Positions 27,113-62,961 of a stretch of 64,000 nucleotides of DNA are shown here, in pieces. Position numbers and translations under genes: made by a program. The stretch is from a virus: positions 30,281 to 94,280 of IMG/VR virus record IMGVR_UViG_3300031952_000008; one strand, 5' to 3'. Position 1 is the stretch's first letter. Each line of letters starts with the position of its first letter. The notes beneath the pieces were generated by a model. It was not told where the DNA came from, did not search any database, and saw nothing but the letters and a program-made list of their open reading frames with translations.

Positions 27113-27205
27113 ATGGGAGATGAAGATTATGAAGGCGGATTCGAAGATGATGATGAAGATGTTTTCAATGATGGTCACGATGATGCTATTATAGAAGATG
27201 AATAG
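27113..27205 (+). CDS. 30-residue highly acidic peptide
   Basis: MGDEDYEGGFEDDDEDVFND, then GHDDAIIEDE; about half Asp/Glu. It starts two bases after the GT4 stop and ends before GGAGGGG of the next gene. It may be a DNA mimic or merely a coupling ORF; no evidence either way. Confidence 0.4.
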   Translation: MGDEDYEGGFEDDDEDVFNDGHDDAIIEDE

Positions 27206-27217
27206 GAGGGGTTATTA

Positions 27218-31298: not shown

Positions 31299-32083
31299 TG
31301 TTTCATAAAAGTGCACAATTCTATGATGATTTTTATAATGCCAAATATGATGGTAGGTCTGATAAAGAGGTAAAATACTTAGAAAGTATTATAAAAAAAT
31401 ATAAGGCTAAAAAAATACTTGATTTAGGATGTGGAACAGGAAGACATACACTTGCACTTGCTAAAAAAGGATATGATATTATAGGTGTAGATATTTCGGA
31501 AGATATGATTGATATTGCATTATTAAAAAAGAATAATGCGGATATAAATACTTGGTTAAATACAACTTTTGTAGTGGGAGATATGAGAAATACCTATTGT
31601 GGAAGCAATTTTGACCTAATTTATTCAATGTTTCAATCAATGAACTATCTATTGACGGATTCGAATTTAAGAGATACTCTTTATAATGTAAATACTCAAT
31701 TAAAAAAAGGAGGAATATTCGTTTTCGACTGCTGGTATGGTCCCTCTATTGAAAAATATGGTTGTCCTAAAAAATCTTTCTCTATCAATAAAGGAGATTA
31801 TAAGATATTTAGGGATAGTATAAGTACAATACATTATGGAACCAGAACTGTAGATGTAGAACAATATTTTACTTTATTAAATACCAAAAGTTTACTACAT
31901 AGATTGTTTTTAAGTTATCATTTTAAAGAAAAACATACTATGCGTTTTCACTACTTGACAGATATAGCACCTTTAATACAGGATGCAGGATTTGAGATAG
32001 TAAAGATAGAAGAATGGATAACTAAAAAGAAACCTTCTCCAGATACTTGGGCTATTACTTTTATATGTAAAAAGGTGAGATAA
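31295..32083 (+). CDS. Class I SAM-dependent methyltransferase
   Basis: 262 residues. Motif I KILDLGCGTGRHTLAL at about residue 40 and GVDISEDMIDIA after it; then FDLIYSMFQSMNYLL. The C-terminal part has a beta-sheet extension typical of small-molecule or sugar methyltransferases. It lies between two sugar genes, so O- or N-methylation of a sugar is the simplest reading. Confidence 0.85.
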   Translation: MMFHKSAQFYDDFYNAKYDGRSDKEVKYLESIIKKYKAKKILDLGCGTGRHTLALAKKGYDIIGVDISEDMIDIALLKKNNADINTWLNTTFVVGDMRNTYCGSNFDLIYSMFQSMNYLLTDSNLRDTLYNVNTQLKKGGIFVFDCWYGPSIEKYGCPKKSFSINKGDYKIFRDSISTIHYGTRTVDVEQYFTLLNTKSLLHRLFLSYHFKEKHTMRFHYLTDIAPLIQDAGFEIVKIEEWITKKKPSPDTWAITFICKKVR

Positions 32084-34289: not shown

Positions 34290-34290
34290 A

Positions 34291-35382: not shown

Positions 35383-36077
35383 AACAGATACCAAATTATT
35401 TTATAAATGCAGTAAAAGAATGTTATGGAATAGATAGGGATGATTTTATAAAAATATTAGAAGACCCTGCTACAAATCAAAAAGCTTGTAATGATGAATG
35501 GGAACATAGAGAAACAAACGATTCCTTTTATCAACATTCTAAAAATTATGTATTTGGGTTAATAGGATTTAATAATCATACTAGAGTATTTAAAGTATTA
35601 TGCCCTATTATGGAAGCGGAAAATAAGAAAATACTTGATTTTGGTGGCGGGATTGGAGAATTAGGTATGCAAATGACTGAAGGTAATGATGTTTACTATT
35701 ATGATTTAGATGGGGAGATACAAAACTTTGCTAAATACTTATCTGCTATGACTAATAGACCTATGACCTTTCTTAAAGAAACAGAAGTTTTTGAACAAAA
35801 ATATGATATTATATTAATTATGGATGTATTAGAGCACTTAGAAGACCCTGTAGGAATACTTAAAAAGTTAATAGATTGTTTAACCCCTAGAGGAATTATA
35901 ATAACTAGTGGTTATAATTTTGTAATTAAAAAAGAATTCCCTATGCATTTGCCTAAAAATAAGGAAGCGAGACAAGGAATATCTGATTTGATGTCTAAAA
36001 ATTTTGATTCATTCTATACTCATTATACAAAAGATGAGACTATATTTGGTATTTATAAAAGGGAGGAGATAAAATGA
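35379..36077 (+). CDS. Class I SAM-dependent methyltransferase
   Basis: 232 residues. Motif I KILDFGGGIGELGMQM, acidic loop YYYDLDGEIQNFAK, and post-I IILIMDVLEHLEDPVGILKKL. An N-terminal extension of about 70 residues precedes the core. ATGA overlaps on both sides. Target probably a sugar or surface molecule. Confidence 0.8.
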   Translation: MKQIPNYFINAVKECYGIDRDDFIKILEDPATNQKACNDEWEHRETNDSFYQHSKNYVFGLIGFNNHTRVFKVLCPIMEAENKKILDFGGGIGELGMQMTEGNDVYYYDLDGEIQNFAKYLSAMTNRPMTFLKETEVFEQKYDIILIMDVLEHLEDPVGILKKLIDCLTPRGIIITSGYNFVIKKEFPMHLPKNKEARQGISDLMSKNFDSFYTHYTKDETIFGIYKREEIK

Positions 36078-37063
36078 AACGAGTATTTTTAATAGCACCG
36101 TTAGAGGATAATCAGACTGGGTATTACGTTTATGATGCATTTAGGGAACTAGGTTGGGCTGTTGCCATATTAGACCCTAGAGAAGTTGCTAAAAAAGTTG
36201 GGTTGGAGAAGTTACAGACTTTAATAGTTCAACAAATAGACCACTTAAATCCTAAACCTGACTTATTGCTCGTTTTAAAAGGGTTAGAAGTATCTACTGA
36301 GGTTATAGAGTATGCTAAACGACAAGGTATTAAAACCGCTTGTTGGATTTATGATGCCACACTCAATGGAGTTCCTTTACATGAATGTAAACAATATATA
36401 GAACAAATGAAACACTACGATACATTCTATACTTATTGCGATAATGTAGATGAACTATTTGAAGCCGGACTTACTAATGTTAAATTCTTAGCAGAAGGAT
36501 ATGACCCTGTTAGGAACGGAGAGCAGATTATTAATTATTACTTAGAGAAAAAGTTCGGAAGCGATATTCTTTTTATAGGCTCGATGGATAATATACATCC
36601 TTGTAGGGAAGACTTTTTGGAAAGGGTAATTGATGAAGGTTTTGAACTTAAAATTTATGGAGAGATTAAAAAGAAGATTAGTCCTAAAATACATAGTAAA
36701 CATCAAAAGGTTGCTTTAATTAATGAATTTCACAGTTACGCCAGTCAAGCAAGTAAAATTTGTTTAGGAGGACTAGATAGCGATTTTATGACCAAAAGGT
36801 CTCACTCTGCTAGGGTTTATAGAACTCTTGCTTGTGGTGGTTTTTATCTTTGTAGAAGAACTGCTGAGATAGAAAAAGATTTTACTATCGGAGTTCACTT
36901 AGATGTATTCGATACCCCGGACGAAATGGTTGAAAAAATAGTTTATTACTTAAACCATCCTGAAGAGAGGAAGAGAATAGCGGATGCTGGAAAGGAAAAG
37001 GTTAAGGAATATACTTTTGAAAAAAGACTACTGGGAGAATTCGGAAGAGGAGATGTAGAATGA
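36074..37063 (+). CDS. CgeB-like glycosyltransferase
   Basis: 329 residues. RVFLIAPLEDNQTGYYVYDAFRELGWAV at the start, DLLLVLKGLEVSTEVIEYAKRQGI, and the C-terminal FMTKRSHSARVYRTLACGGFYLCRR ... EMVEKIVYYLNHPEERKRIADAGKE typical of the CgeB/GT family. Last transferase of the block. Confidence 0.8.
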   Translation: MKRVFLIAPLEDNQTGYYVYDAFRELGWAVAILDPREVAKKVGLEKLQTLIVQQIDHLNPKPDLLLVLKGLEVSTEVIEYAKRQGIKTACWIYDATLNGVPLHECKQYIEQMKHYDTFYTYCDNVDELFEAGLTNVKFLAEGYDPVRNGEQIINYYLEKKFGSDILFIGSMDNIHPCREDFLERVIDEGFELKIYGEIKKKISPKIHSKHQKVALINEFHSYASQASKICLGGLDSDFMTKRSHSARVYRTLACGGFYLCRRTAEIEKDFTIGVHLDVFDTPDEMVEKIVYYLNHPEERKRIADAGKEKVKEYTFEKRLLGEFGRGDVE

Positions 37064-48969: not shown

Positions 48970-49254
48970 ATGGAACAAATAGAGTTTAAATTGTCGGATT
49001 TTGAAAAAGAAGGTATAGAAAAGAGATTATTACCTTTTATTGATGTATTACATTCAAAGGCATCAGGGTTTAAGAATGGAACTGATGGCTATAAGAAATG
49101 TTATAAAGATGAGGATACTTTTGTTACCAAACATATTAAGTCAAAAGGAATAAAAGATGAGGAAGAAATGGTAACTTCTATAATAGTCAATTATGATAAA
49201 GAAGGTTTAAAAATGATTCAAGAAGCCGCAAAAGAGGTAGAAAATAGTGGTTAA
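48970..49254 (+). CDS. Protein, unknown
   Basis: 94 residues, helical: IEFKLSDFEKEGIEKRLLPF, then charged regions and a C-terminal helix MIQEAAKEVENSG. Overlaps the GTG start of the next gene. Confidence 0.55.
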   Translation: MEQIEFKLSDFEKEGIEKRLLPFIDVLHSKASGFKNGTDGYKKCYKDEDTFVTKHIKSKGIKDEEEMVTSIIVNYDKEGLKMIQEAAKEVENSG

Positions 49255-49504
49255 GTTAGAAAATATAAAAATTGGACAAAAATATAAAGTAACAGGGTCT
49301 ATTGGAGAATGTTGGGCCAATAAGAAATGCAAGGATTGTTCGCCCTTCAAAGAAGGAGTAGTTGCTGAAAAAATAAATCCAGGACATGATACCTATAGCA
49401 ATAGAATAGTTTTTTGTAAAGGCATTACTGGTGGTCAATGTCATTTTAATCCTTTAGATTTAGAACCTTTTAATAAAAAATTGTTTGATTTGGAGATAAA
49501 ATGA
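49247..49504 (+). CDS. Beta-barrel small protein with variant LMDL tail (LFDL)
   Basis: 85 residues, GTG start overlapping the previous stop. KIGQKYKVTGSIGECWAN..C..C then a C-terminal FNKKLFDLEIK, where LFDL replaces LMDL. Four Cys in the first half may bind zinc. Earliest gene of the tail family in the operon. Confidence 0.55.
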   Translation: MVKLENIKIGQKYKVTGSIGECWANKKCKDCSPFKEGVVAEKINPGHDTYSNRIVFCKGITGGQCHFNPLDLEPFNKKLFDLEIK

Positions 49505-49614
49505 AAAACATAATTACATTACCATTTAGATTTATTAAAGGATTAATATTTAACTATGATATTTATGAAACCTTTAAATGGAATTGTAAATGTGTTTGGA
49601 ATGGTATAAAATGA
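49501..49614 (+). CDS. 37-residue protein
   Basis: MKNIITLPFRFIKGLIFNYD, ending KCVWNGIK; hydrophobic/basic. ATGA overlaps on both ends. Confidence 0.4.
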   Translation: MKNIITLPFRFIKGLIFNYDIYETFKWNCKCVWNGIK

Positions 49615-49925
49615 GTTTCAAAAAAGGAGATAGGGTTATTAAAGCAAGACCTTTTAGGAAGGATAAGTATTGTAAATGGGGAGGAGATAAAGCATATGTT
49701 CCTATAGGAACTAAAGGAACAATAACCCAAATTTCCGATATAAATGATGCCAAAGTTAGTTTTGATAATGGACTACGTTGGAGTGTTAGTCAGGAAGAAC
49801 TTGACCCATATAAAAGTAGTTTAATGGATTTAGAATATAAAGAGACCCCAAAAGTTCCAGAAATAAATTATTCGGATGATGAAGATGAAGAAGAACCAGA
49901 AGAAGAATGGCATGATGAAGACTAA
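49611..49925 (+). CDS. SH3-like protein, LMDL motif followed by acidic tail
   Basis: 104 residues from ATG 49611. SFKKGDRVIKARPF...VPIGTKGTITQISDINDAKVSF is close to repeat 1 of the 47571 protein. SSLMDLEYK at residues 71-79 matches the family tail, but a 25-residue Asp/Glu run follows. It is the only member with the motif clearly internal. Confidence 0.6.
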   Translation: MSFKKGDRVIKARPFRKDKYCKWGGDKAYVPIGTKGTITQISDINDAKVSFDNGLRWSVSQEELDPYKSSLMDLEYKETPKVPEINYSDDEDEEEPEEEWHDED

Positions 49926-50061
49926 TAGTTGCCCAAGAGGAATGGAAGTTAAAAGCTGTGGCGATTGCCCATTATATATGGATAGTTGTAGGGGTAATGA
50001 AGCACAATGGGAATTAGAAGAATTGGAGGAGATTAATAATGGCCCGTTTATTGCAGGATGA
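49912..50061 (+). CDS. 49-residue four-Cys protein
   Basis: MMKTNSCPRGMEVKSCGDCPLYMDSC then an acidic end. Overlaps neighbours on both sides. Zinc- or cluster-binding. Confidence 0.5.
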   Translation: MMKTNSCPRGMEVKSCGDCPLYMDSCRGNEAQWELEELEEINNGPFIAG

Positions 50062-50287
50062 AAAAGTTAATGTAGGAGATAAGGTTATGCTAATAGATGA
50101 TGAACCTAACCAAAATCTTATAAAAAGAATATACGGGTTAAACCCTGTCATTGTTTTTAATACAATATATACCATTAAAGGATTTGATGATACTCTTATA
50201 CTTACAGAACCTAATATAGATGGTTATCTTTGTAAAATCAGATTTAGAAAGGCATTAATTAACCTAATGGATTTGGTAATAAAATGA
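50039..50287 (+). CDS. SH3-like LMDL-tail protein
   Basis: 82 residues, GGAGGAGATTAATA upstream. NVGDKVMLIDDEPNQNL...FNTIYTIKGFDDTLIL barrel, then NLMDLVIK at the C-terminus (codons CTA ATG GAT TTG). Confidence 0.65.
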   Translation: MARLLQDEKVNVGDKVMLIDDEPNQNLIKRIYGLNPVIVFNTIYTIKGFDDTLILTEPNIDGYLCKIRFRKALINLMDLVIK

Positions 50288-50565
50288 TAGAAATTAAAGA
50301 TACCAAGATAAGAGTTAAGGATAGTAAAGAAAGTGCTCTTGTCCAGAAAAAGTTATTTAGTTTAGGATGTAGATGGGATAATAGAATAGAACAAGAACAA
50401 CGGTTAAAATTTTTAAGTTGTCCTTTCCTTTATATATCTAACGATTTAAGTTTAGGATATACAGACCATGGTAGTGACCATTTCTTTAGTATCCATAGAA
50501 ATAAAGAAATAACGGTTAAAGATTTATTATGTCCTAAGACATTAATGGATTTAGAGGTGAAATAA
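50284..50565 (+). CDS. LMDL-tail protein with a different fold
   Basis: 93 residues. The N-terminus DTKIRVKDSKESALVQKKLFSLGCRWD is an alpha/beta domain also common in phage accessory proteins, not SH3-like, yet it ends CPKTLMDLEVK. Important evidence that the tail is portable. Confidence 0.65.
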   Translation: MIEIKDTKIRVKDSKESALVQKKLFSLGCRWDNRIEQEQRLKFLSCPFLYISNDLSLGYTDHGSDHFFSIHRNKEITVKDLLCPKTLMDLEVK

Positions 50566-50566: not shown

Positions 50567-50857
50567 ATGACTTGGTTATGCTTGGCTTGTGGAAACAAAG
50601 AAGAATTTAAAGGATATTGTAACGGAACCTGTAGTTATACTGAAAGGGCTTACTTTGATGGAGAAGGAAGTGTTACAGAAACCACCGATTGCGATTATGA
50701 TAATTATGATGGTAATGATAGTGAGGTTGAAGAATGTGGTGTTTGTGGTAGTTGTGATATTCAATGTTTTGATACCAAAGAAGAAGCAGATGAGGCTTAT
50801 AAACTAAATAAGAAACCAAAGACTTTAATGAGTTTAGAGGTTAAAGATGACTCCTGA
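50567..50857 (+). CDS. Zinc-finger protein with LMSL tail variant
   Basis: 96 residues. Cys pairs LCLACGN, GYCNGTC, ECGVCGSCDIQC; acidic middle. Ends KPKTLMSLEVKDDS, i.e. Asp to Ser plus three extra residues. Third fold type with this tail. Confidence 0.65.
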   Translation: MTWLCLACGNKEEFKGYCNGTCSYTERAYFDGEGSVTETTDCDYDNYDGNDSEVEECGVCGSCDIQCFDTKEEADEAYKLNKKPKTLMSLEVKDDS

Positions 50858-51083
50858 AGAATTTAAAAATCTTAAGATAGGGGACGAATTAGTCTCCGTA
50901 AATGATGTTCCTTTCTTTACAAGAGGGATTAGAGTGGTAGTTAAAAGTATTAGTGAATGGGGACCACGAATTGAAGGAATAAAAAATGGTAAAGTATATG
51001 ATAAAGGTATTCCAGATGTGTATATGGATTATTATGAATTGATAAAAAAGAGACCTAAAACGTTGATGGACTTAAAAGTATGA
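50847..51083 (+). CDS. SH3-like LMDL-tail protein
   Basis: 78 residues; LKIGDELVSVNDVPFFTRGIRVVVKSI, then YYELIKKRPKTLMDLKV. ATG overlaps the previous end by 11 bases. Confidence 0.65.
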   Translation: MTPEEFKNLKIGDELVSVNDVPFFTRGIRVVVKSISEWGPRIEGIKNGKVYDKGIPDVYMDYYELIKKRPKTLMDLKV

Positions 51084-51400
51084 AATACCTTAAAACAGAA
51101 GGAGGATACCTTGTAGAAAGTGAGAGTAAAGAAGGAACTTTTTACAATGTAAGTTTGGATTTCAAATCCTGTACCTGTCCTGCTTTTAAATACTTCCTTC
51201 ATTGTAAAGGAATGTGTAAGCATATGAGTGCGGTTGCTAATAAGGAAAAGAAGGATTTAACTAAAGAAACAAAGGACATAACATTTACTGATGGTAGTGA
51301 AGCCTTTGAGTTTGTTGATAAATACGGAGAAGAGAAACTTAATTTCCTTAAAAAAATAGGAGAAGTTTATGAACAAAATGGTAAACTATTCAAGATGTAA
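51080..51400 (+). CDS. SWIM zinc-finger protein
   Basis: 106 residues. CTCPAFKYFLHCKGMCKHM at about residues 32-50 is a clear SWIM finger (CxC-x(n)-CxH). Helical C-terminus. SWIM proteins bind DNA or proteins. No tail motif. Confidence 0.75.
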   Translation: MKYLKTEGGYLVESESKEGTFYNVSLDFKSCTCPAFKYFLHCKGMCKHMSAVANKEKKDLTKETKDITFTDGSEAFEFVDKYGEEKLNFLKKIGEVYEQNGKLFKM

Positions 51401-52265: not shown

Positions 52266-52580
52266 ATGCCTACTAAGAGACAGATTGCCGCACGAAAGGC
52301 TGTGGCTACAAGGAGAGCAAGAGCAGGTGTTGAAGCACCAGCAAGAGCAACAGGTGGAGCAATAGAAGTGAAGTATGGAAGGATGGGAATCAACGGTGTT
52401 AAAACCGCTTTGGTCGCTCCTGGCACAACTCACGAGGCTGCACTTAAACAAGCAGGAGTTGAACTAAACCCTGCTAAAGAGGGCATCCAAGACAAGAAGA
52501 CAGGAAACACGGTGATGTTTGCTGATGTTGTCGTGGAAGGCACATATATTGTGGCCCAAGGTATCAATTCAAGTATGTAA
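52266..52580 (+). CDS. Ubiquitin-like modifier (beta-grasp)
   Basis: 104 residues from ATG 52266, with GGAGGTGG nine bases upstream; an ORF reading from 52215 is less likely. Residues 1-30 are a basic tail (KRQIAARKAVATRRARAG). Residues 32-104 read as beta-grasp: strand AIEVKYGRMG, strand VKTALVAPG, helix TTHEAALKQAGV, then GIQDKKTGNTV and ADVVVEGTYIVAQG, as in ThiS/MoaD/phage Ubl proteins of the PRTRC kind. It lacks a terminal Gly-Gly; the last Gly is followed by INSSM, so trimming at AQG may be needed. Followed by the E2-, JAB- and E1-like genes. Confidence 0.7.
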   Translation: MPTKRQIAARKAVATRRARAGVEAPARATGGAIEVKYGRMGINGVKTALVAPGTTHEAALKQAGVELNPAKEGIQDKKTGNTVMFADVVVEGTYIVAQGINSSM

Positions 52581-52590
52581 ATTGAACCTA

Positions 52591-52634
52591 AAAGTTTTTT
52601 AAGGCATTTTTTTGTTTTTTGCCTAACATTTTTT
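52591..52634 (+). terminator. Terminator after the modifier gene
   Basis: AGGCA (52602-52606) / TGCCT (52620-52624) with a T-rich loop and several T-runs on both sides. Would raise the modifier over downstream enzymes. Confidence 0.6.
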
Positions 52635-52654
52635 AACCAATGAGGTGAGAAACT

Positions 52655-54139
52655 ATGATGAAATTAAAGGTTGATGAAAAGAACATTTTCCTATTCAATA
52701 AGTTATTGAAGTTAGGAAAGAAGAAAGATGATAATACGGTTGTAATTTCTACTCCTTTTAAGATAACAATAGAAGGAATAATGAAGGATGATAATATTGT
52801 AGAAATTCAGATAACTGCGGCAACAAAGCCAGGAGAGAAGTTCGTCCAAGATATGTTGGATAATTTAAGTTTTGTAACCGCTAAGGATATTGAAAAGACT
52901 GGGTTAACTTTGGATAATCTTAAGACAGCAGAGTATGACATGGTTTATTATGACCGAACCGAATTTCTTAGGAGAAAAGATTTGATTACCAAATTGGCTC
53001 CTGGGGTAGAATTCAATAAAGCTCTTACTGAGGGGTTCATTTATGATGAGATAACCATGAGTTTTAACCCAAAAATCAACAAAGTCTTCGGTGATGAGAA
53101 GGATACCGAGATACAAACAGAGTGGGATAAGGATAAACGAATGGTTTATTTACCAATTAACGATACTTCCGCAGATAAGAACGTGGTTGATACAAAAAAC
53201 AATATTATAGGAAAGTATTACAGAAATAGGAACACTATTGTATTAATGGTTAATCCCTTTAAGAACACGGATGAAGTAGTTAATGCCATAATAACAGGGT
53301 TAAGTGCTTTTGAAGTTAAGAAGGAAGACACGGAAAAGTTCAAGATGATTAATCTGGCTAAAACATTTACTAAGGACATATCAGTAAGATTAGCCGATAA
53401 AGAAAAACGAAAAACTAATATGGAGAAAGAGGTTAAAGATTACCAACAAGCAATAATGGATAAGTTTACAACTATCCAAATGGATAGTGAGGAAATAATT
53501 GCTTTAAAAAATATGAAGGATAACTTCAAGGAATCTTTCTTTAAAGAACTTAAAGCCACTAAAGAATTACAATTTATTAAAGATGTGGGATTTACACCAA
53601 CCGAAGTTCTTTTAACTTACAAACCTACTTGTATTACTGAACCTAATTTTATAAGGACAAGTAAAGAGTATGGTAAAAGAAGTATGTATGTTGGGGAGGT
53701 AATCATTAAAGTAGGAGCCGGACAAATTAAGATAGGTAATACTTTGGATTTAGAAATTTATAAAACACAAAACGACCCAAGTTCAGGAGTTGCTTATAAG
53801 TTTCCTCACCCACACGCTCACGATAATGGAGAATGTTGTTTAGGAAAAGAAGCAACCAAGGACACCATTTATATGCTAAAGAGTCAACTTAAATTCTCCG
53901 ATTTGGCAATTTATCTTTGTATGTTCGTTAGAAACTTTGGAACAGATGGTGGATTTATGGGTAAGCATAATTTGTATGATTTCTGTTTAATGAATGGCTA
54001 CCCAGTTTTTGATGAAAAAGGAAAACAAATATACATTAATGACCCTGAAAAAATAAAGAGTGGAGAACAAGTAGAAATGAAGAAGGCAAAGAACTGGGAA
54101 GAGAATGTTGCTAAATTTAAAGACTTTAAACCAAACTGA
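52655..54139 (+). CDS. E2-like ubiquitin-conjugating-type protein
   Basis: 494 residues. A long N-terminal region of about 300 residues has no clear match (beta-rich, then helical with DKEKRKTNMEKEVKDYQQ). The C-terminal domain, about 300-450, has YKFPHPHAHDNGECCLG with His385/His387/His389 and Cys394-Cys395, followed by two helices (LKSQLKFSDLAIYLCMFVRNF). This HPH...CLG arrangement matches the E2-like proteins of phage and PRTRC-type Ub systems, Cys being the thioester acceptor. Which of the two Cys acts is open. GAGGTGAGA before ATG. Confidence 0.7.
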   Translation: MMKLKVDEKNIFLFNKLLKLGKKKDDNTVVISTPFKITIEGIMKDDNIVEIQITAATKPGEKFVQDMLDNLSFVTAKDIEKTGLTLDNLKTAEYDMVYYDRTEFLRRKDLITKLAPGVEFNKALTEGFIYDEITMSFNPKINKVFGDEKDTEIQTEWDKDKRMVYLPINDTSADKNVVDTKNNIIGKYYRNRNTIVLMVNPFKNTDEVVNAIITGLSAFEVKKEDTEKFKMINLAKTFTKDISVRLADKEKRKTNMEKEVKDYQQAIMDKFTTIQMDSEEIIALKNMKDNFKESFFKELKATKELQFIKDVGFTPTEVLLTYKPTCITEPNFIRTSKEYGKRSMYVGEVIIKVGAGQIKIGNTLDLEIYKTQNDPSSGVAYKFPHPHAHDNGECCLGKEATKDTIYMLKSQLKFSDLAIYLCMFVRNFGTDGGFMGKHNLYDFCLMNGYPVFDEKGKQIYINDPEKIKSGEQVEMKKAKNWEENVAKFKDFKPN

Positions 54140-54165
54140 TTATCGCCAGTTAAAAGGTGAATAGT

Positions 54166-54423
54166 ATGAAATACACGGACATAAAAGAAGGTATGTTAAT
54201 CAAATTGGTTAATGTAGGTTGTGAAGAGGATGATGAAGCATATACTGGTGCCTATGAAGGAGAGATTTTTAAGGTAGGAAAAATAAATAATAACTATGCC
54301 AATATTACAAGAGTTAGTGATGGTTGGGATAATTATTGTATTCCTGGCGAACCAGCAACTTATTGTGAGTGTTGGGAGCCAGTAATTGTTAAACCTAAAA
54401 CGTTAATGGAGTTGAAATTTTGA
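54166..54423 (+). CDS. SH3-like LMEL-tail protein
   Basis: 85 residues from ATG 54166. MKYTDIKEGMLIKLVNVGC...GEIFKVGKINNNYANI barrel; ends KPKTLMELKF, Glu for Asp. Lies between E2- and JAB-like genes. Confidence 0.65.
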   Translation: MKYTDIKEGMLIKLVNVGCEEDDEAYTGAYEGEIFKVGKINNNYANITRVSDGWDNYCIPGEPATYCECWEPVIVKPKTLMELKF

Positions 54424-54683
54424 AACTAGAAGATATTAAACCCGGAATGAAAATAAGATTAGTAACCCAAGAAGTAGGAGGTCATAAAGATTATTATAAT
54501 TATGATTGGAAAATTGGTGATATAATGCAGGTATTAGATATTGGGTTAACTTTATATAATCTTAGAACAAAACAAAAAAATTATTGTATACCAGAAGTTC
54601 GTATTCCTTGTATGGCAAACGAACATTATTATTCCGAGTTTTTTGAACCATTAAAAAAGACGCTTATGGACTTGAAAATATGA
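54420..54683 (+). CDS. SH3-like LMDL-tail protein
   Basis: 87 residues; MKLEDIKPGMKIRLVTQ, WKIGDIMQVLDIG, then a Cys/His stretch and FEPLKKTLMDLKI. Strong paralogue of its two neighbours. Confidence 0.7.
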   Translation: MKLEDIKPGMKIRLVTQEVGGHKDYYNYDWKIGDIMQVLDIGLTLYNLRTKQKNYCIPEVRIPCMANEHYYSEFFEPLKKTLMDLKI

Positions 54684-54910
54684 AATGGGAAGATATTAAA
54701 ATAGGTATGTTAATAAAACTTATTGATAACCCAGCCAATTTTTATATAGGTTGTAATATTGGTGATATTTTTAAGGTAAAAAGAATGATGGACGCTCCTG
54801 ATTGGTATATTATTGAAGGCGTAAATAATGATGGAGTAAAAGGTTTAGGTAAAGATTATCTTAAATTTTGGGATTATTGTAATAGGAATCTTATGGATTT
54901 AAAAATATAA
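54680..54910 (+). CDS. SH3-like LMDL-tail protein
   Basis: 76 residues; MKWEDIKIGMLIKLIDNPA, CNIGDIFKVKRMMD, ending CNRNLMDLKI. Third consecutive member; tail codons CTT ATG GAT TTA. Confidence 0.7.
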   Translation: MKWEDIKIGMLIKLIDNPANFYIGCNIGDIFKVKRMMDAPDWYIIEGVNNDGVKGLGKDYLKFWDYCNRNLMDLKI

Positions 54911-54967
54911 AATATGACCAAAAGGGAAGAAGAATATGGAATAGAATAGTAAAGGAGGAGGAAAAAC

Positions 54968-56089
54968 ATGACCAAGTATCGTGGAACTATCGTTTTGAAA
55001 AAGAAGCCATATAAGATAATAGAATGGCTAACAATGAACTTTGATAAGGAAATAGGTGCCATTGGAATAGGGCAAGTAGAAGATGGTATCTTGTATGTTG
55101 AGAAACTATTCTTCCCAAAACAAGAAGTTACAGCCGCCCATATTCACATAGACCCTGCTGGATTCGGGGACATAATTAGAGAACTGAGCATGGAAGACCT
55201 TGGTAGAATTAATTTTTACTGGCATAAACATCCTGATGGATATGCTGGACATAGTGGAGGAGATGAAGAGGAAACCATTGATGTATTCATGGATGAAAGT
55301 TATGGTAGGAAAATCATGGGATTTCTTGTAACTTCTAATTACAGCGGAACTATGAAACAGGATTGTCGAATTGAAATTAGAGACCCAGTTTGGGCAAGTA
55401 TAGAAAGTCAAGCAATTTCTGAGGAAGACACGGCTGTAGAGGAAGAGTGTAGAAAAATTCTTGAAAAATGTATCATTAAACCAGTAGAAAGAAAGGAAAC
55501 TCCAGAATTTGCTAAGTGGAAAGATAAATTATTACAAACAGGTCATAATTGTACTAGAACAGACCAAGGGCTCTTAAGAGATTGTGGAATAGATAGGACA
55601 CTTAATTACAACAATACCTGTGGAGAAACTGGCGACCTTAAATTATCTGATATGATTGGAAATATGGTCAGGAACAAGAAGAAACTTACCAGGTTTGTTA
55701 GTAAAGATGAGGACTTGAATGAGGAAATAGAAATATTAGTAGGAAATGGTATGGGCTTTGTGGTTGCTTACGCTAAATACCAACCTATTCTTGCTGATTT
55801 CTTCAAGGATGCTATGGATTTGTTTAGTGATATTGTAACCGTAGAAAAAGATGGTTTAGTTAAATACAATTTAGTTCCTAAGGCTAAAATGTATGATAAA
55901 ATGAAGGAAGAACTTAAGAAATTATATTCCTTAATAGACCAGGAAAAGAAAAGATTAAAAACGGATGAGATAGTAGCAGGAGCCAAAGTAGAAACTCCAG
56001 CACCAAAATCGGATAAAGATATTGTAATGAAAGGCTATCCTGATATGACTGGTATGACTAAAGGACAACGTGACTTTTATTTCGGATGA
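54968..56089 (+). CDS. JAB/JAMM-domain metalloprotease (deubiquitinase-like)
   Basis: 373 residues, GGAGGAGG before ATG. Residues 1-150 are a JAB domain: Glu28 (DKEIGAIGIGQV), then HKHPDGYAGHSGGDE with His86, His88, Ser96 and Asp99, an exact H-x-H-x7-S-x2-D zinc site. It would remove or trim the modifier. The C-terminal 220 residues include a Cys-rich stretch (KCIIKPVE, HNCTRTDQG, CGIDRTLN) and helices, ending MTKGQRDFYFG; perhaps substrate binding. Confidence 0.88.
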   Translation: MTKYRGTIVLKKKPYKIIEWLTMNFDKEIGAIGIGQVEDGILYVEKLFFPKQEVTAAHIHIDPAGFGDIIRELSMEDLGRINFYWHKHPDGYAGHSGGDEEETIDVFMDESYGRKIMGFLVTSNYSGTMKQDCRIEIRDPVWASIESQAISEEDTAVEEECRKILEKCIIKPVERKETPEFAKWKDKLLQTGHNCTRTDQGLLRDCGIDRTLNYNNTCGETGDLKLSDMIGNMVRNKKKLTRFVSKDEDLNEEIEILVGNGMGFVVAYAKYQPILADFFKDAMDLFSDIVTVEKDGLVKYNLVPKAKMYDKMKEELKKLYSLIDQEKKRLKTDEIVAGAKVETPAPKSDKDIVMKGYPDMTGMTKGQRDFYFG

Positions 56090-56164
56090 AATAATTATAT
56101 TTATAATTATTTAAGGGAATTAGAGGTGAAAGAGAGGTGATAGATATTTTCAAGGTGAATCTCT

Positions 56165-56281
56165 ATGGATAAAGAGGAAAAGTATGTTTGTGAGGATTGT
56201 GGTAATTGGTTTTTTAGGCATACTTTTATTGAAAGATGTCCTTATTGTTATTCGGAAAATATTGTTAAGGTGAAATTATGA
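56165..56281 (+). CDS. 38-residue zinc ribbon
   Basis: KYVCEDCGNWFF ... RCPYCYSENI, a minimal two-knuckle ribbon. Overlaps the next ATG. Confidence 0.6.
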   Translation: MDKEEKYVCEDCGNWFFRHTFIERCPYCYSENIVKVKL

Positions 56282-56448
56282 GTATGTTTAAAAAATTTGC
56301 TTCAGGTAGAGCTACCTGTAAGAAATGTAACACCAAAATCGAAAAAGGAGAAACAGATATTGGTTACAAAAGCATAGCGGGCCCTCGAAGTGAGGAAAGA
56401 CATTACCATTTAAAATGTATTCTTAGTATGCCAATACAGGAGAAATAA
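56278..56448 (+). CDS. PARP-type zinc-finger-like protein
   Basis: 56 residues. ASGRATCKKCNTKIEKGETDIGYKS ... RHYHLKCIL fits the CxxC-x(n)-HxxC PARP-type finger (C14, C17, H45, C48 by position) that recognises DNA breaks. Single-domain form. Suggests a DNA-damage or nick-binding role near the modifier system. Confidence 0.7.
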   Translation: MSMFKKFASGRATCKKCNTKIEKGETDIGYKSIAGPRSEERHYHLKCILSMPIQEK

Positions 56449-56450
56449 TT

Positions 56451-56705
56451 ATGAAACTATCCGATTTTAAAGAAGGTATGAAAGTAAGATTTGCTAAAAA
56501 CTTCGGTCCCAAACACCAAGATTATACTTTTAAAATAGGAGATATAATAGAAATAACAAGGATAGGTATGGGTTCAATATCTCTTTTTAACCCAAGAACT
56601 AAGGAAGACCAATATGGTATTCCTTTAAATCATAAAGATACTAATGAATTTTTAAACCAGTTTGAACCGATTAGAACTTGTTTAATGGATTTAACGATGA
56701 GGTGA
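56451..56705 (+). CDS. SH3-like LMDL-tail protein
   Basis: 84 residues; MKLSDFKEGMKVRFAKNFG, FKIGDIIEITRIG, ends RTCLMDLTMR. Its last codons provide GAGGTGA for the next gene. Confidence 0.68.
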   Translation: MKLSDFKEGMKVRFAKNFGPKHQDYTFKIGDIIEITRIGMGSISLFNPRTKEDQYGIPLNHKDTNEFLNQFEPIRTCLMDLTMR

Positions 56706-56710
56706 AAATA

Positions 56711-56920
56711 ATGAATTGTATTATTGATGGTTGGAAACATAGATTTGATGCTTTAGGTAAATGTATCCTTTGCGATAAACAATTTTGTTGTGTTAGTAAG
56801 CATCATGGATTGGCGGCTTGTGAGGTAGTTTCAGAGAACGGCTCCACTATTGATTTTGTTTGTCCGGAATGTTTAAAAAGGTATAAAAAACGAGGTTGGA
56901 AAGTGAAAAAATGGATATGA
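56711..56920 (+). CDS. Zinc-binding protein
   Basis: 69 residues from ATG 56711. CILCDKQFCC, then CEVV and FVCPECLKRY; a zinc finger. Basic end overlapping the next ATG. Confidence 0.6.
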   Translation: MNCIIDGWKHRFDALGKCILCDKQFCCVSKHHGLAACEVVSENGSTIDFVCPECLKRYKKRGWKVKKWI

Positions 56921-57072
56921 ATTATCATTGTATTGGTAGATTTAAAAGTAGAGAAGAATGTTTAAGAAGATTACAACCTTTTAAAGAAAAAGGTTTTGAA
57001 ATAAAAACGGTTTTGCGTGGTAAAAGATATAACCCAAATAAATTATATGCGGCTGTTTATATAACTAAATAA
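56911..57072 (+). CDS. 53-residue basic protein
   Basis: MDMNYHCIGRFKSREECLRR, later KTVLRGKRYNPNKLYAAVYIT, an RRM/ferredoxin-like beta-alpha-beta look. Overlaps the previous stop; GAGGTGA for the E1-like gene follows it. Confidence 0.5.
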   Translation: MDMNYHCIGRFKSREECLRRLQPFKEKGFEIKTVLRGKRYNPNKLYAAVYITK

Positions 57073-57085
57073 TGAGGTGAAAAAC

Positions 57086-57850
57086 ATGGCTTTGAATTTA
57101 AGCAAACAGGCACTTCTTATTGATGATGCCAAAGTAAAAAAATATACGGTACATATATTTGGATTGGGTAGCATAGGTAGTCATTTGGGTAGAGCACTTT
57201 GTAAAACGGGTTTCGTTAATATAGTAGGTTATGATTTTGATACCGTTGACGAAGATAATATTCCTGCCCAAGCGTTCAGTCCTAAACATATTGGTATGAA
57301 AAAGACCGAAGCGTTTAAACAAATGTTAATAGAGGAGACAGGGATAGAACCAATAGTTTATGATGGTAAAGTTGATGAAAAGACCGAGATTAAAATAGAG
57401 GCTAATTCTATATACTTTGTGGCTTTTGATAGTATCCCTGCTAGAAAACTTGTTTGGGATAAAGTAAAGAACTTCCCAGTTCCTTATGGAGAGACTAGGA
57501 TTGGAATGTTTGATTATCGTTTCTATTTTGTAGTGCCAGGGAAGACTCCTATGGATTGGAAGTTCGGGTATGAGAAATTACTTGACCCTAATCAACCAAT
57601 GACCGAACTTAAATGTGGAGAGAAATGTAGTTTCGGTCCCAACACTTACTTGGTATCCTTAGTATTAAGGCAGATGCTTAACATAATAGAGGAGAAAGAC
57701 CTTATATATTCTTACATAGGTAATTGGCTTACTCCAGATAACATAATTATTAAATCAACTTGGTTAGATAAACAACAGGAAGAAGAAAAAGAAGAAGTTG
57801 AACTATCCGAGTTTGAGAAAGACCTCAAAATCGTTGAGGAAATTATTTAG
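57086..57850 (+). CDS. ThiF/MoeB/E1-like adenylyltransferase
   Basis: 254 residues from ATG 57086. Rossmann ATP site FGLGSIGSHLGRAL (G26-x-G28-x2-G31), then YDFDTVDEDNIPAQAFSPKHIGMKKTEA with the acid D50/D52, N58, Q62 and Lys72/73. The Arg usual before that Gln (N-x-x-R-Q) is Ala61 here. Cys pairs ELKCGEKCSFG near residue 190 are candidate catalytic or zinc residues. It would adenylate the modifier's C-terminus. C-terminal tail acidic. Confidence 0.85.
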   Translation: MALNLSKQALLIDDAKVKKYTVHIFGLGSIGSHLGRALCKTGFVNIVGYDFDTVDEDNIPAQAFSPKHIGMKKTEAFKQMLIEETGIEPIVYDGKVDEKTEIKIEANSIYFVAFDSIPARKLVWDKVKNFPVPYGETRIGMFDYRFYFVVPGKTPMDWKFGYEKLLDPNQPMTELKCGEKCSFGPNTYLVSLVLRQMLNIIEEKDLIYSYIGNWLTPDNIIIKSTWLDKQQEEEKEEVELSEFEKDLKIVEEII

Positions 57851-58146: not shown

Positions 58147-58383
58147 ATTCAAAGTAGGAGAGACTTGGTAGAATTTATAGATGACGCACTTCCTGATGTA
58201 TTATTAAAAGGAAAAATAGTAATGGATGCCAAAGATAAAACATTTTATTTAGAAATTCTTTATCCTAAAGGATTTGGTTGGACTGGTTCCGGATTTAAAA
58301 ATGATAATGGTAATAAATATTGGTGTGTAAGTAAAAGAAGGCTTAGATTAACAAAGAAAAACCTTATGGACTTGGTAATATGA
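58139..58383 (+). CDS. LMDL-tail protein interrupted by a frameshift
   Basis: Starts at ATG 58139 with MYKFKVGETW, the usual beginning of the family, and meets TAG at 58169. In the -1 frame the sense continues as VEFIDDALPDVLLKGKIVMDA to KKNLMDLVI at 58383. A one-base loss at TGG-TAG, a sequencing error, or -1 recoding would explain it. Without it, translation could start at TTG 58165. Confidence 0.6.
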
Positions 58384-58943
58384 GCAAACAATTCAATTAT
58401 AGCAGGGCAAGAACCATCAATAAAAAGGATGTTAATTCCGAATATATTGAAATAATCAAGGATTTGGATTGTAAAGAAGGTAACCACCTAATTTTAGATA
58501 GCCGTTTCAAAAATACTACTAAGGCTCTTAATTCAATAAAGATACCTATACGAAACATTTATATTCCTAATCCATACGAAAAAGTGGATGCTCCAAATTG
58601 GTCTAACCAGTTTGTGGGCGACTTCTTAAATTCTTGGACGGGTGGAGCGTTCCGGACGGTATACTTAGACTATTGTTGTACCCTTGAAGGAAATGCGGAA
58701 ACTCGTCCGAGATTTGATATTCAAAAGTTAATGGAAAAACGATTGGTAAATGGAGTATTAGGAATTGAACTGAATAGGAGAGACCCAAGAAAAAGTGGAG
58801 GAGTTCGTAGTTGGGGTGACATTTGTGACCTTATTAATTACGTTGAAAACCTTGCCTATGAAAACCATTACACTTATCAAGTAATAGATGGATGGACATA
58901 CGGACAAATGTTCGTGGTGTTCTTCAATTTGGTGAAAGGATGA
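58380..58943 (+). CDS. Unknown protein, possibly methyltransferase-like
   Basis: 187 residues, ATGA overlap. Trp/Cys-rich core: FLNSWTGGAFRTVYLDYCCTLEGN, then VNGVLGIELNRRDPRK and YTYQVIDGWTYGQMFVVFF. The strand-turn-strand end looks like a class I SAM fold but the glycine motif is not visible. Function open. Confidence 0.55.
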   Translation: MSKQFNYSRARTINKKDVNSEYIEIIKDLDCKEGNHLILDSRFKNTTKALNSIKIPIRNIYIPNPYEKVDAPNWSNQFVGDFLNSWTGGAFRTVYLDYCCTLEGNAETRPRFDIQKLMEKRLVNGVLGIELNRRDPRKSGGVRSWGDICDLINYVENLAYENHYTYQVIDGWTYGQMFVVFFNLVKG

Positions 58944-59197
58944 TTAAAGAATTTAAATCAGGAAAATGGTATAGACTTAACCCGCAAGGAGTAAAATACG
59001 TTAGTTGGAATAATAAAGGCGATATGAATTTCCTTAAAGATTTTAAATATCATCAATGTAATAGAGGACATGATTATTTTGCCTCTTTTTATGATTGTAA
59101 AATTCCTAGTTATGGTTGGAGTTTTAATAACTCCTTAGAGTTCTTTGATGAAAGAGATAATGGTAAGATGAACCTTATGGATTTGGTGATAAAATGA
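58940..59197 (+). CDS. LMDL-tail protein
   Basis: 85 residues from ATG 58940, GGTGAAAGG upstream. SGKWYRLNPQGVKYVSWNNKG and aromatic strands; ends GKMNLMDLVIK, whose last codons (TTGGTGATAAAA) are the next ribosome site. Confidence 0.65.
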   Translation: MIKEFKSGKWYRLNPQGVKYVSWNNKGDMNFLKDFKYHQCNRGHDYFASFYDCKIPSYGWSFNNSLEFFDERDNGKMNLMDLVIK

Positions 59198-59451
59198 CTA
59201 AAAAAGATTTAAAAATAGGTGATAAAGTAAGATTTAAATACGAAGGGCTTGACTCCATAGGAACTATTTTCAAAGATAGAGGAACTAATTATTATTTAAT
59301 TAAATTATTACCTGAACATGAAAAAGATGGTGGCTGGCCCGAAAAAGATGGAAGAATAGAAAATAACCTACCTATTGGTAAATATTGGAATGTTCCTGGA
59401 AGACATATTGAATCATTAGTTCCTAAATCATTGATGGACTTAGTATTATAA
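59194..59451 (+). CDS. SH3-like LMDL-tail protein
   Basis: 85 residues; DLKIGDKVRFKYEGLDSIGTIFKDRG barrel, ends VPKSLMDLVL. Tail codons TTG ATG GAC TTA. Confidence 0.68.
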   Translation: MTKKDLKIGDKVRFKYEGLDSIGTIFKDRGTNYYLIKLLPEHEKDGGWPEKDGRIENNLPIGKYWNVPGRHIESLVPKSLMDLVL

Positions 59452-59585: not shown

Positions 59586-59810
59586 ATGGAATTTAAAGTT
59601 GGAGATAAAGTTAAAGTAGTTCACATGCCAAGCGAGTGTGATGGAGGCTTTCCTAAAGAAATGTTGGGTAAAATTGTAACAATAGATGATGTTTGGTTAG
59701 ATTTACTTGGTGTTATTTATACAATTAATAAAAATAGGTGGTGTTCTAATTTTATAGAATCCGATTTAGAACATATAAGAAAGAACTTAATGGATTTGGA
59801 AGTGAAATAA
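59586..59810 (+). CDS. SH3-like LMDL-tail protein
   Basis: 74 residues; MEFKVGDKVKVVHMPSECDGG, MLGKIVTIDDVWLDL, ends RKNLMDLEVK. Controlled by the leader described at 59486. Confidence 0.7.
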   Translation: MEFKVGDKVKVVHMPSECDGGFPKEMLGKIVTIDDVWLDLLGVIYTINKNRWCSNFIESDLEHIRKNLMDLEVK

Positions 59811-59812: not shown

Positions 59813-60028
59813 ATGTTTAAAAAAGGAGATAAGGTCACTTTAAAAGACGGAACAGAATTTAAGCACCAACAAGGAACTGCTAAGTTTGGAACTATCTTAA
59901 ATGATGAATCCCTCACAATGTGGATTAAAGTAAGATGGGGAAAAGGATGTGAAAGGAGAGAAGATGTTTATCCTATTAAAGATTTGTTACTTTTAAAACC
60001 TCAAAAGTTAATGGATTTAGTATTTTAG
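59813..60028 (+). CDS. SH3-like LMDL-tail protein
   Basis: 71 residues; MFKKGDKVTLKDGTEFKHQQG, TMWIKVRWGKG, ends KPQKLMDLVF. Confidence 0.7.
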   Translation: MFKKGDKVTLKDGTEFKHQQGTAKFGTILNDESLTMWIKVRWGKGCERREDVYPIKDLLLLKPQKLMDLVF

Positions 60029-60090: not shown

Positions 60091-60957
60091 ATGGAAACAT
60101 TAAGTAAGGTAGATGATATAATGTATTTATCACCCAGCAGTATTAACGACTATTTTCGTTGCCCCTATTTTTTCTTTAAAAGCCATATAGAAAAGGTTCC
60201 TATCAAAAAGACCATTCACTTAGTTAAAGGAACCGTTGTTCATAATTCATTAGAGAAATGGTTTATGGAATACACGGATGACTTAGTTAAAGGAATGGAA
60301 GATATTTTTAATAGAGAGTGGGAAATCAATCCTGAACTTAAAGACCTTAAACTTCCTGATGAAGAATTGGTTATGCATAAAAAGGATGCTTGGAATATTG
60401 TTACTAAATTTGTAACAAGACACCTTGATAAAATAGAGGGTATTATTGATGCTGGTAAGGCTGAGAATTATAGACACGCTTGGTATCTTTTAAGACCTAA
60501 ACTTAACGAGGTTAAACTAGAAGTTCCCGAAATGAAAGTTAGGGGTAAAGCAGATAGGGTTTATGAAAACTTTGATGGATTAGTAACTCTTGGAGATTAC
60601 AAAACCAGTAATAGGTATGGTATCGGAATTACTGAAGACCAAAGGCGACAAATAGCCATTTATGCTCTTATGTATCTGGAACAAGAAAAGAAACCTTTAC
60701 ATTTCGTGTCCATAATCTTCCTTAGATTTGGAGAGGAACCAATGTTAGAAGTAACACCTGACCTTATTAAGTTTGGAAGAGATACGGTATTATATGTAAG
60801 GGAGAAAACAATGAGTAGGAACATTGATGACTATCCTAAGAAACTTAGTTCTAATTGCCAGAATTGTGCTCTTTTAGAACTTTGTAGTGGGGCGGAAGAA
60901 TTCGTATCTAAACTTAGGAAGGAAAAGTTTAAAAAGTTAGCGGAGAAACTTAAATGA
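60091..60957 (+). CDS. Cas4/RecB-like PD-(D/E)XK nuclease
   Basis: 288 residues. N-terminal SPSSINDYFRCPYFFF with the first cluster Cys; VRGKADRVYENFDGLVTLGDYKTSN gives the Asp ... Asp-x-Lys (GKADR, DYKTS); QRRQIAIYALMYLEQ follows; C-terminal NCQNCALLELC supplies three Cys for a [4Fe-4S] cluster. This is the Cas4/AddB-like form. Likely 5'-end processing in recombination-dependent replication. Confidence 0.9.
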   Translation: METLSKVDDIMYLSPSSINDYFRCPYFFFKSHIEKVPIKKTIHLVKGTVVHNSLEKWFMEYTDDLVKGMEDIFNREWEINPELKDLKLPDEELVMHKKDAWNIVTKFVTRHLDKIEGIIDAGKAENYRHAWYLLRPKLNEVKLEVPEMKVRGKADRVYENFDGLVTLGDYKTSNRYGIGITEDQRRQIAIYALMYLEQEKKPLHFVSIIFLRFGEEPMLEVTPDLIKFGRDTVLYVREKTMSRNIDDYPKKLSSNCQNCALLELCSGAEEFVSKLRKEKFKKLAEKLK

Positions 60958-61178
60958 AAAAGGAAGATTTCAAGGTTGGAATGAAGATAGAACTATTCTC
61001 TAAAATAGGTGAGAAACATTGTTCTGGCTTAAATCTTGGAGAAGTTTATACGGTTAATAATATAGAAGATAAACGGGTATATATAATATCTTCCTACGAA
61101 GAACACTTAACCATTTGGAACTGTTGTTTTAGATACGTTAAAAAGGTAAAATCTACATTGATGGATTTGAAAATATGA
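60954..61178 (+). CDS. SH3-like LMDL-tail protein
   Basis: 74 residues; DFKVGMKIELFSKIG, NLGEVYTVNNIEDKRVYI, ends VKSTLMDLKI. ATGA overlap with the nuclease. Confidence 0.68.
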   Translation: MKKEDFKVGMKIELFSKIGEKHCSGLNLGEVYTVNNIEDKRVYIISSYEEHLTIWNCCFRYVKKVKSTLMDLKI

Positions 61179-61399
61179 ACGAAAAAGAACGGGAACAATT
61201 TCCTAGTGGAATCGTTACTATGATTCTTAATAGGAACTTTAATGATTGTAAAAAGGGAGATAAAGTTGATATGTTTAAACTTCCATACACTAATGAGTTT
61301 TGGGTACAAAATTCAAAAAAAGAAACATTTAAAGTATATGGTAAAGATTATCAATGGTTTGATTATCCCAAAAAAACTTTGATGGATTTACAATGGTGA
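61175..61399 (+). CDS. LMDL-tail protein
   Basis: 74 residues; less typical barrel (VTMILNRNFNDCKKGDKVDMFKLP), ends PKKTLMDLQW, an unusual Gln-Trp after the motif. Confidence 0.65.
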   Translation: MNEKEREQFPSGIVTMILNRNFNDCKKGDKVDMFKLPYTNEFWVQNSKKETFKVYGKDYQWFDYPKKTLMDLQW

Positions 61400-61644
61400 A
61401 ATGGAAAGAGATTAGAAAAGGTATGAAACTTAGATTAATGAAAAGACCAAGAACGCATCCGGAGAATGGTTATAACCCTTTAGAAATTGGAGATATTGTA
61501 ACGGTAACTAAAAAAAATAAGGAAGGATACTGGGACATAGTAAATGATAAATATGATGTTGTTTTTGGGTTATCTAACGATAAAGATTGGTTAGCGGTTT
61601 GGGAACTTGTTTATCCCAAGTGTTTGATGGATTTAAAAATGTAA
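61393..61644 (+). CDS. SH3-like LMDL-tail protein
   Basis: 83 residues; WKEIRKGMKLRLMKRP, LEIGDIVTVTKKNKEGYWDIV, ends YPKCLMDLKM. Starts inside the TGG-TGA of the previous gene. Confidence 0.68.
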   Translation: MVKWKEIRKGMKLRLMKRPRTHPENGYNPLEIGDIVTVTKKNKEGYWDIVNDKYDVVFGLSNDKDWLAVWELVYPKCLMDLKM

Positions 61645-62381: not shown

Positions 62382-62492
62382 ACGAAACCCAATTATAAAA
62401 AAGGATACTTTATATTAATGGAGTATTGGGATAGTTTACCAGATGAACAAAAGGAAGATATACATAAAGAATTAGTAGAGTGTGGGTTATGA
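62382..62492 (+). CDS. Short conserved-looking protein, ACG start candidate
   Basis: 36 residues if started at ACG 62382, six bases after GGTGG. Sequence (M)KPNYKKGYFILMEYWDSLPD then ELVECGL reads as one folded piece; the only ATG in frame (62418) would cut it to 24 residues and lose KKGYFIL. In-frame stop at 62367. Confidence 0.45.
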   Translation, partial: TKPNYKKGYFILMEYWDSLPDEQKEDIHKELVECGL

Positions 62493-62701
62493 AATGTCTT
62501 TGTATAAAAGATGGGTTTACAGATGGTGGTAAACAATTTGCTTATAAGGGAAAGAGTTATGAATATATTGGTGAAGGAACACATATGCAACTTAAGACCG
62601 AAGGCATGGATGATTTTAAACATTATATTGGAGATATGAAATGGTTTAATAAATATTTTACTTTAGCCCCTAAAAATTTAATGGATTTGGTAATGATATG
62701 A
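62489..62701 (+). CDS. SH3-like LMDL-tail protein
   Basis: 70 residues from ATG 62489. MKCLCIKDGFTDGGKQFAYKGKSYEYI, then Trp/Phe strand, ends APKNLMDLVMI. ATGA overlaps on both sides. Confidence 0.65.
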   Translation: MKCLCIKDGFTDGGKQFAYKGKSYEYIGEGTHMQLKTEGMDDFKHYIGDMKWFNKYFTLAPKNLMDLVMI

Positions 62702-62961
62702 AAAAACTTAAAGTTGGAATGGTTTGTAAGTATAGAAACATAATGACAATGTTTCCTACCGAAATATGGAGAAAAAAGATTTTAAAGGTCAAAATTGTAG
62801 AAATCAAAGATAGAGAATATACTATCCAATTCTTACATTATCCTGATATTGGTCATGGTACGAGAGAACAAGATGGTGTACAATTTAAAGGTTACTGGTT
62901 TGTTCAGAAAGAGGACTTAGAATATTTGGGTCCAAGTTGTTTGATGGATTTGAAAATATGA
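62698..62961 (+). CDS. SH3-like LMDL-tail protein
   Basis: 87 residues; LKVGMVCKYRNIMTMFP, ILKVKIVEIKDREYTIQFL, ends GPSCLMDLKI. Last member of the family in the window. Confidence 0.65.
   Translation: MKKLKVGMVCKYRNIMTMFPTEIWRKKILKVKIVEIKDREYTIQFLHYPDIGHGTREQDGVQFKGYWFVQKEDLEYLGPSCLMDLKI

Follow-up and report, generated by a model that had tools for sequence, protein, structure and literature searches.

To our knowledge, ubiquitin-like conjugation in bacteria has so far been either a predicted plasmid or chromosomal system or an anti-phage weapon. One of the predicted operon types, type 6d of Iyer et al. 2006, we take to be the PRTRC-type cluster. Operons with the four functions concerned, a ubiquitin-like modifier (Ubl), an activating E1-like protein, a conjugating E2-like protein, and a JAB (JAMM) peptidase, were predicted in 2006, and type 6d E2s have a His downstream of the Cys in place of the classical upstream active-site His (Iyer et al. 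2006, PMC1779556). Bil-type sets (PMC11354881) and the ubiquitin-like enzyme sets of CBASS (PMC10097602) act against phages; in the Bil sets, BilD combines a Cys domain with two adenylation domains, one inactive and one active, and BilA carries a pair of Ubl domains (PMC11354881). Here, we describe a viral locus that is probably a complete virus-borne ubiquitin-like conjugation system. It lies within a 64,000-nucleotide stretch of DNA, hereafter the window, which comprises bases 30281 to 94280 of virus record IMGVR_UViG_3300031952_000008 (94,280 bases). All four open reading frames (ORFs) were found on the + strand at 52266 to 57850 of the window, in agreement with an earlier sequence-only reading that had placed four such genes on one strand within 5.6 kb.

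Four genes of the set

The E1-like protein (57077 to 57850, + strand) is a 257-amino-acid (aa) adenylyltransferase of the ThiF fold, as read earlier, and scores well above the cutoff of Pfam ThiF (E = 1.7 × 10−14; 54 bits, cutoff 28.1). Its PDB matches are MccB, UBA5, and the SUMO/NEDD8 E1 subunits. When the window E1 was aligned with 65 others from related loci (66 in all), the nucleotide-binding residues and one cysteine proved conserved: GxGxxGS (G29, G31, and G34 being the glycines of the window GxGxxG motif), D53, D55, N61, K76, D118, R141, and C180 were kept in 98 to 100% of sequences, with the candidate catalytic C180 in 100%. A tree grouped the window E1 with its viral counterparts and separated it from 19 cellular ThiF-family proteins (support 100/100), with a very long window branch and a narrow cellular set from which Bil, CBASS, and PRTRC E1s were left out.

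The E2-like protein (52655 to 54139, + strand; 494 aa) was detected by profile searches. Its putative ubiquitin-conjugating (UBC)-like core spans approximately residues 290 to 450, with the candidate active site H385-P-H...C395-L-G397. Direct hmmscan of this protein and of the candidate modifier against Pfam, PHROGs, and NCBIfam gave nothing useful, a close-relative scan with the E2 protein found none, tblastn of E2, JAB, and modifier against phages returned no matches, and no Pfam E2 model matched any of 17 E2-like proteins from viruses. A hidden Markov model (HMM) of viral E2s was built from domains found by a PHPHx4Gx2CLG motif search of viral contigs together with the E2-like genes of other modules. 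With this HMM, the window protein scored 20.7 bits versus 9.4 bits for the top of 2103 control ORFs. The His and Cys of the active site are invariant in 17 viral E2s. Since H385, C395, and G397 are the invariant residues in an alignment of 9, C395 is the candidate nucleophile, rather than C394, the other cysteine named earlier. A profile was also made from eight viral domains, that of the window included, and searched against all PDB sequences; ubiquitin-conjugating enzymes made up 59 of the 60 top matches, aligned through HPN..G.ICL. The CCLG region, on whose alignment with a UBC-like fold the earlier E2 assignment had been made to depend, does align in profile searches with UBC-type enzymes.

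The JAB/JAMM isopeptidase-like protein (54968 to 56089, + strand; 373 aa) has all five metal-site residues (E28, H86-x-H88-x7-S96-x2-D99), the exact E...H-x-H-x7-S-x2-D site reported by the sequence-only reading. Pfam Prok-JAB matched it at 0.16 only, the sequence being too divergent. The H, H, S, and D of the HxH..S..D motif are invariant in 61 aligned proteins, an invariance that is partly by construction because relatives were chosen by that motif adjoining an E1. Similarity to the JAB of a viral locus (L025) extends beyond the motif (phmmer, 8.5 × 10−10) and is not by construction.

The candidate modifier (52266 to 52580, + strand, with an in-frame GTG extension to 52215) is a 104-aa protein with a basic N-terminal extension. 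Its position and C-terminus are compatible with such a role: the gene directly precedes that of the E2-like protein, an arrangement shared with viral relatives, and the protein ends ...YIVAQG99-INSSM. In the relatives, conservation continues past the last strand up to a small residue (GG, GA, NA, SG), after which come 0 to 4 variable residues (DGG-LN, DNA-TSK), an extended tail (KTGG-RIISVWSV), or a fused second domain (VVKADNA-ATVTV, TKSG-ALDRK). This is the pattern expected of JAB-trimmed precursors. An AlphaFold2 model of the window protein (predicted local distance difference test [pLDDT], 67) has the order b-b-a-b-b-b; it was made from alignment A5, chosen from 120 random subsets after MAFFT alignments A2 and A4 were judged by eye to misplace the C-terminus, and the result is weakened because this choice favors the expected alignment. 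A match to phrog_20884 (0.0015) spans the basic N-terminal extension along with some of the core; we did not read it as homology. We conclude that the 52266 product is the probable, though unproven, modifier.

Three viral loci (L037, 7034 to 7711; L049, 7107 to 7715; and L055, 7119 to 7763) encode a modifier fused to a second protein of ∼130 aa, with DNA or ENA at the junction. In other phages (L020, L036), this partner is a separate neighboring gene. The fusions resemble ubiquitin precursor fusions.

A widespread viral module

A scan with an E1 profile yielded 80 viral loci, and the gene order modifier, E2, JAB, E1 recurs in most of them, including cultured crAss-like phages. From these loci and two phage records, 57 modules were drawn in which an E2-like gene and a JAB gene lie upstream of the E1; a small or fused modifier lies upstream of the E2 wherever it is callable. 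The modules form three main E2 clusters, one with the fecal phage contig MT835544, one with the crAss-like phages, and one labeled marine/freshwater from its contigs, a habitat label that is unchecked. Carriers include cultured crAss-like phages of Bacteroides intestinalis, Kehishuvirus among them, in which the set is annotated as hypothetical proteins, a metalloprotease, and a thiamine biosynthesis protein. Related E1s also occur in cellular genome contigs (Oscillospiraceae, Ruminococcus, a flavobacterium, an archaeal metagenome-assembled genome, and others). The set attributed earlier to this virus is therefore real but not peculiar to it. We found no description of the viral four-gene set in the open-access literature searched, and ubiquitin goes unmentioned in two papers on crAss-like phages; subscription papers and preprints were outside the scope.

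A rival reading is a sulfur-carrier pathway, in which a ThiS/MoaD-like modifier would be converted to a thiocarboxylate by the E1 and released by the JAB for thiolation of an RNA or metabolite, with no protein conjugation. ThiF models are indeed the best curated-family match of the E1 (PRK08644, 1.2 × 10−16), and JAB with E1 is also known from sulfur-assimilation operons (PMC1779556). However, an E2-like gene with conserved His and Cys directly precedes the JAB gene in most viral modules, whereas sulfur pathways have no E2. In addition, no rhodanese or sulfur-metabolism gene is visible in the neighborhood, as judged by reading the sequences, and the E1s of viruses make up a clade separate from the sampled cellular ThiF-family set. 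We regard a sulfur carrier as quite improbable.

In one viral contig (L012), tandem E2-like genes (1814 to 2857 and 2811 to 3983) carry C-terminal cysteine-rich extensions that look RING or treble-clef-like, suggesting E2-E3-like fusions.

Comparison with described systems

By the features tested, the set is neither PRTRC nor Bil. Like the window set, PRTRC-type clusters have separate Ubl, E2-like, JAB, and E1-like genes, and the sequence-only reading had named them among the prokaryotic Ub-like systems that combine these families. The window set departs from them: the window E1 reaches 28 bits against a PRTRC_ThiF equivalog cutoff of 144.75, the window E2 has H385 upstream of its Cys whereas type 6d E2s have no upstream His, and no other PRTRC protein was recognized among the four window proteins.

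The Bil sets share the Ubl, E2, JAB, and E1 functions in the order of the BilABCD names (PMC11354881), and the window E1 matches the BilD model weakly (1.4 × 10−4). Furthermore, in 26 of the 57 modules, many of them in gut phages, the E1 is followed within 2.5 kb by the gene for a reverse transcriptase (RT) of ∼380 aa (L014, 6900 to 8237; also L031 and other viral loci). These RTs, with YADD and LPQG motifs, are related to defense-type RTs (best PADLOC match, RT_II-A, for the two tested). Such features would fit a phage-carried, Bil-like immunity in which the set would tag the structural proteins of rival viruses sharing the cell and so exclude superinfection. The architecture differs, however. 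The window E1 is one 257-aa domain with one ThiF match, and the modifier one domain of ∼75 aa carried by a virus, unlike the two-domain E1 plus Cys domain of BilD and the two Ubl domains of BilA. No RT was found in this virus. Bil-like immunity seems to us a fairly unlikely function, if one to be taken seriously.

CBASS type II (Cap2/Cap3) and 6A-MBL likewise combine a ThiF-fold E1 with E2 and JAB functions, and the window E1 matches PADLOC E1-E2 models at up to 8.6 × 10−10. In those systems, E2 and E1 are fused in one protein, whereas the window encodes them separately and has a dedicated modifier gene. The crAss-like module of Kehishuvirus has the same four functions and order and an E1 ∼23% identical to that of the window with catalytic residues in common; its modifier is fused to a second domain and its enzyme genes are adjacent, whereas those of the window are interleaved with other genes.

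Small proteins with a shared C-terminal tail

The interleaved genes, described earlier as encoding SH3-like and zinc finger proteins, are real, and many of their products share a C-terminal tail that appears to be new here. Eighteen small window proteins have a C-terminal LMDL (or LFDL, LMEL) with two or three residues after it, and two further small proteins carry a variant or internal copy. All of these genes lie at 49.2 to 63.0 kb, around and between the four genes of the set; within one gene set, 18 of the 32 small genes in this interval are tailed versus 0 of 59 elsewhere in the window. One more tailed protein is encoded in the left arm of the record. The bodies of the tailed proteins are SH3-like but divergent (mean identity, 26%; maximum, 45%), whereas the tail is near-constant and its synonymous codons vary, indicating that the peptide itself is selected. 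Two specific roles were considered. The tail as a Shine-Dalgarno sequence for the next gene was rejected, since its Leu and Asp codons are variable and some tailed genes have no gene immediately after them. A PCNA-binding (PIP) box is unlikely, there being no aromatic residue at the key position.

The same design with other tails was found in four other lineages that carry the set: MT835544 and its relative L048 (ECxCESLL), L041 (NIEELI), L045 (DIEAMI), and L225 (ENELLDLLS), with weaker cases in L046, L037, L038, and L061; no tailed small proteins were detected near the crAss-like module, unlike in the window. Under one fixed rule, a tail family of at least four members was present in 5 of 86 module loci plus the window versus 0 of 118 control loci that were shorter on average and came from unmatched viruses (Fisher 0.005; 0.012 after merging two near-identical loci). 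A matched control scan based on single-stranded DNA-binding protein (SSB) yielded one locus only. In six genomes, tailed genes were concentrated within 12 kb of the E1 (p 0.0007 to 0.075), a test that is biased because the tail patterns were chosen near the E1.

Our working guess is that the tailed proteins are partners of the conjugation system, either substrates or adaptors that choose targets, and we hypothesize that they dock onto it. In one specific form, the ∼20 tailed SH3-like proteins would be interchangeable E3-equivalent adaptors, with diverse bodies that bind different host proteins and a common, virus-specific tail that docks on the viral E2 or E1; we consider this unlikely as stated. 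Nearly as probable as not is that the tail has nothing to do with the set: it may be a C-degron, may dock on some other hub such as a clamp or polymerase, or may be left over from recent duplication within an array of early genes. Among the 87 loci bearing the module, only ∼5 lineages were found to have tail families, tailed genes lie in arrays of small early-type genes and may be near the set by position alone, and the tail patterns of other genomes were picked from the neighborhood of the set. Against such an unrelated role are the absence of such families from the control loci, the position of tailed genes between module genes in both the window and L041, and the near-invariance of the tails on divergent bodies.

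Neighboring genes and likely host

Upstream of the modifier gene, six tailed genes are on the + strand: 49247 to 49504 (ending ...KKLFDLEIK), 49590 to 49925 (SH3-like, with SLMDLEYKE followed by an acidic extension; Pfam DUF4314, 5.6 × 10−5), 50039 to 50287 (...NLMDLVIK), 50284 to 50565 (...KTLMDLEVK), 50567 to 50857 (variant tail, ending KTLMSLEVKDDS), and 50847 to 51083 (...PKTLMDLKV). They are followed by a SWIM zinc finger (51080 to 51400; Pfam SWIM, 1.5 × 10−7). Three + strand genes occupy the E2-JAB interval, 54157 to 54423 (...KPKTLMELKF), 54420 to 54683 (SH3-like, ...KKTLMDLKI), and 54680 to 54910 (...NRNLMDLKI). The JAB-E1 interval holds a 56-aa zf-PARP-like zinc finger (56278 to 56448, + strand; Pfam zf-PARP, 1.1 × 10−8, 36.2 bits, just under the cutoff of 39.3) and an SH3-like tailed protein (56451 to 56705, + strand, ...RTCLMDLTMR). 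Downstream of the E1, again on the + strand, are 58165 to 58383 (...KKNLMDLVI), 58892 to 59197 (...MNLMDLVIK), 59194 to 59451 (SH3-like, ...PKSLMDLVL), 59586 to 59810 (...RKNLMDLEVK), 59813 to 60028 (...PQKLMDLVF), 60954 to 61178 (...KSTLMDLKI), 61175 to 61399 (...KKTLMDLQW), 61393 to 61644 (...PKCLMDLKM), 62480 to 62701 (...PKNLMDLVMI), and 62698 to 62961 (...PSCLMDLKI). A Cas4-like nuclease gene adjoins tailed genes at 60091 to 60957 (TIGR00372, 5.8 × 10−11, below cutoff). Elsewhere in the window, a long run of glycosyltransferase, DegT-type aminotransferase, radical SAM, and methyltransferase-like genes (26091 to 37063) may be a sugar-modification island, as judged from the sequences.

The virus was described earlier as tailed, with archaeal promoters, and several features agree. 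It encodes a terminase large subunit, and RadA in the left arm of the record passes archaeal equivalog cutoffs. The left arm also encodes a family B polymerase, an anaerobic ribonucleotide reductase, and a PAN-like AAA ATPase. TTTAWATA boxes are in excess (59 observed versus 42.6 ± 6.7 expected), and TATA-like boxes lie upstream of 14% of genes versus 6% of random sites. The host is thus likely archaeal. No DNA similar to the window was found in phage records, an Rfam search of 46 to 64 kb gave no match, and a tRNA search found none. The AAA ATPase (L016, 7789 to 9033), encoded by the same virus as the conjugation set, has its best matches to proteasome-activating nucleotidase (2.9 × 10−17, below cutoff).

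Proposed mechanism and significance

Computation supports the assignment to enzyme families and shows that the active-site residues are intact, that the gene order is conserved, and that the set belongs to a viral module of wide distribution. From what is known of these families, we propose that the JAB would trim the modifier after G99, and that the E1-like protein would adenylate the new C-terminus and then hold the modifier as a thioester on C180. The E2-like protein would take the modifier onto C395 and hand it to target proteins, from which the JAB could also remove it, making conjugation reversible. The order of reactions, the trimming site, and the choice of proteins over a sulfur acceptor as targets are all inferred from family knowledge. 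Our working guess is that conjugation is directed at the host or at viral competitors.

Several observations weigh against a complete conjugation system. The candidate modifier has only one terminal glycine, its E-values against the viral modifiers are near 1 (noise level), and Foldseek of its model against PDB gave no match at E ≤ 0.001 (best, 0.92). The AlphaFold2 model of the E2-like protein is of low confidence (pLDDT 40.6), although its helix, strands, active site, and helices follow the UBC order. Individual PDB matches to UBC enzymes are also weak (E, 0.026 to 0.33), so that the weight of this evidence rests on their consistency. The E1 lacks the Arg of the N-x-x-R-Q motif (NIPAQ in the window), as do two aligned phage relatives; this residue is usual in ThiF/MoeB/E1 proteins but not defining, and given a Pfam score well above the cutoff, E1/ThiF membership was kept. 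Finally, we found no conjugate reported for any virus with this set. Of the earlier interpretation, then, the virus-encoded E1/E2/JAB/modifier set stands, whereas the beta-grasp fold of the 52266 product was not confirmed: the position and C-terminus of this 104-aa protein fit a modifier, but neither fold nor sequence matches are significant. The tagging of host or virion proteins by the virus, as proposed earlier, is conjectural. On balance, we consider a complete virus-borne conjugation system the probable reading of the locus.

If the adaptor reading of the tailed proteins were true, the virus would widen its range of targets by adding cassettes, and five or more viral lineages would have come to the same design with different tails. 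More generally, if the tailed proteins dock on the set, viruses would have evolved a modular ligase system. Complete sets sit in viruses themselves, both in a probable archaeal virus and in gut, water, and crAss-like phages. Since some of the crAss-like carriers are in culture, a role of prokaryotic ubiquitin-like systems outside immunity may be tested in a laboratory phage-host pair.

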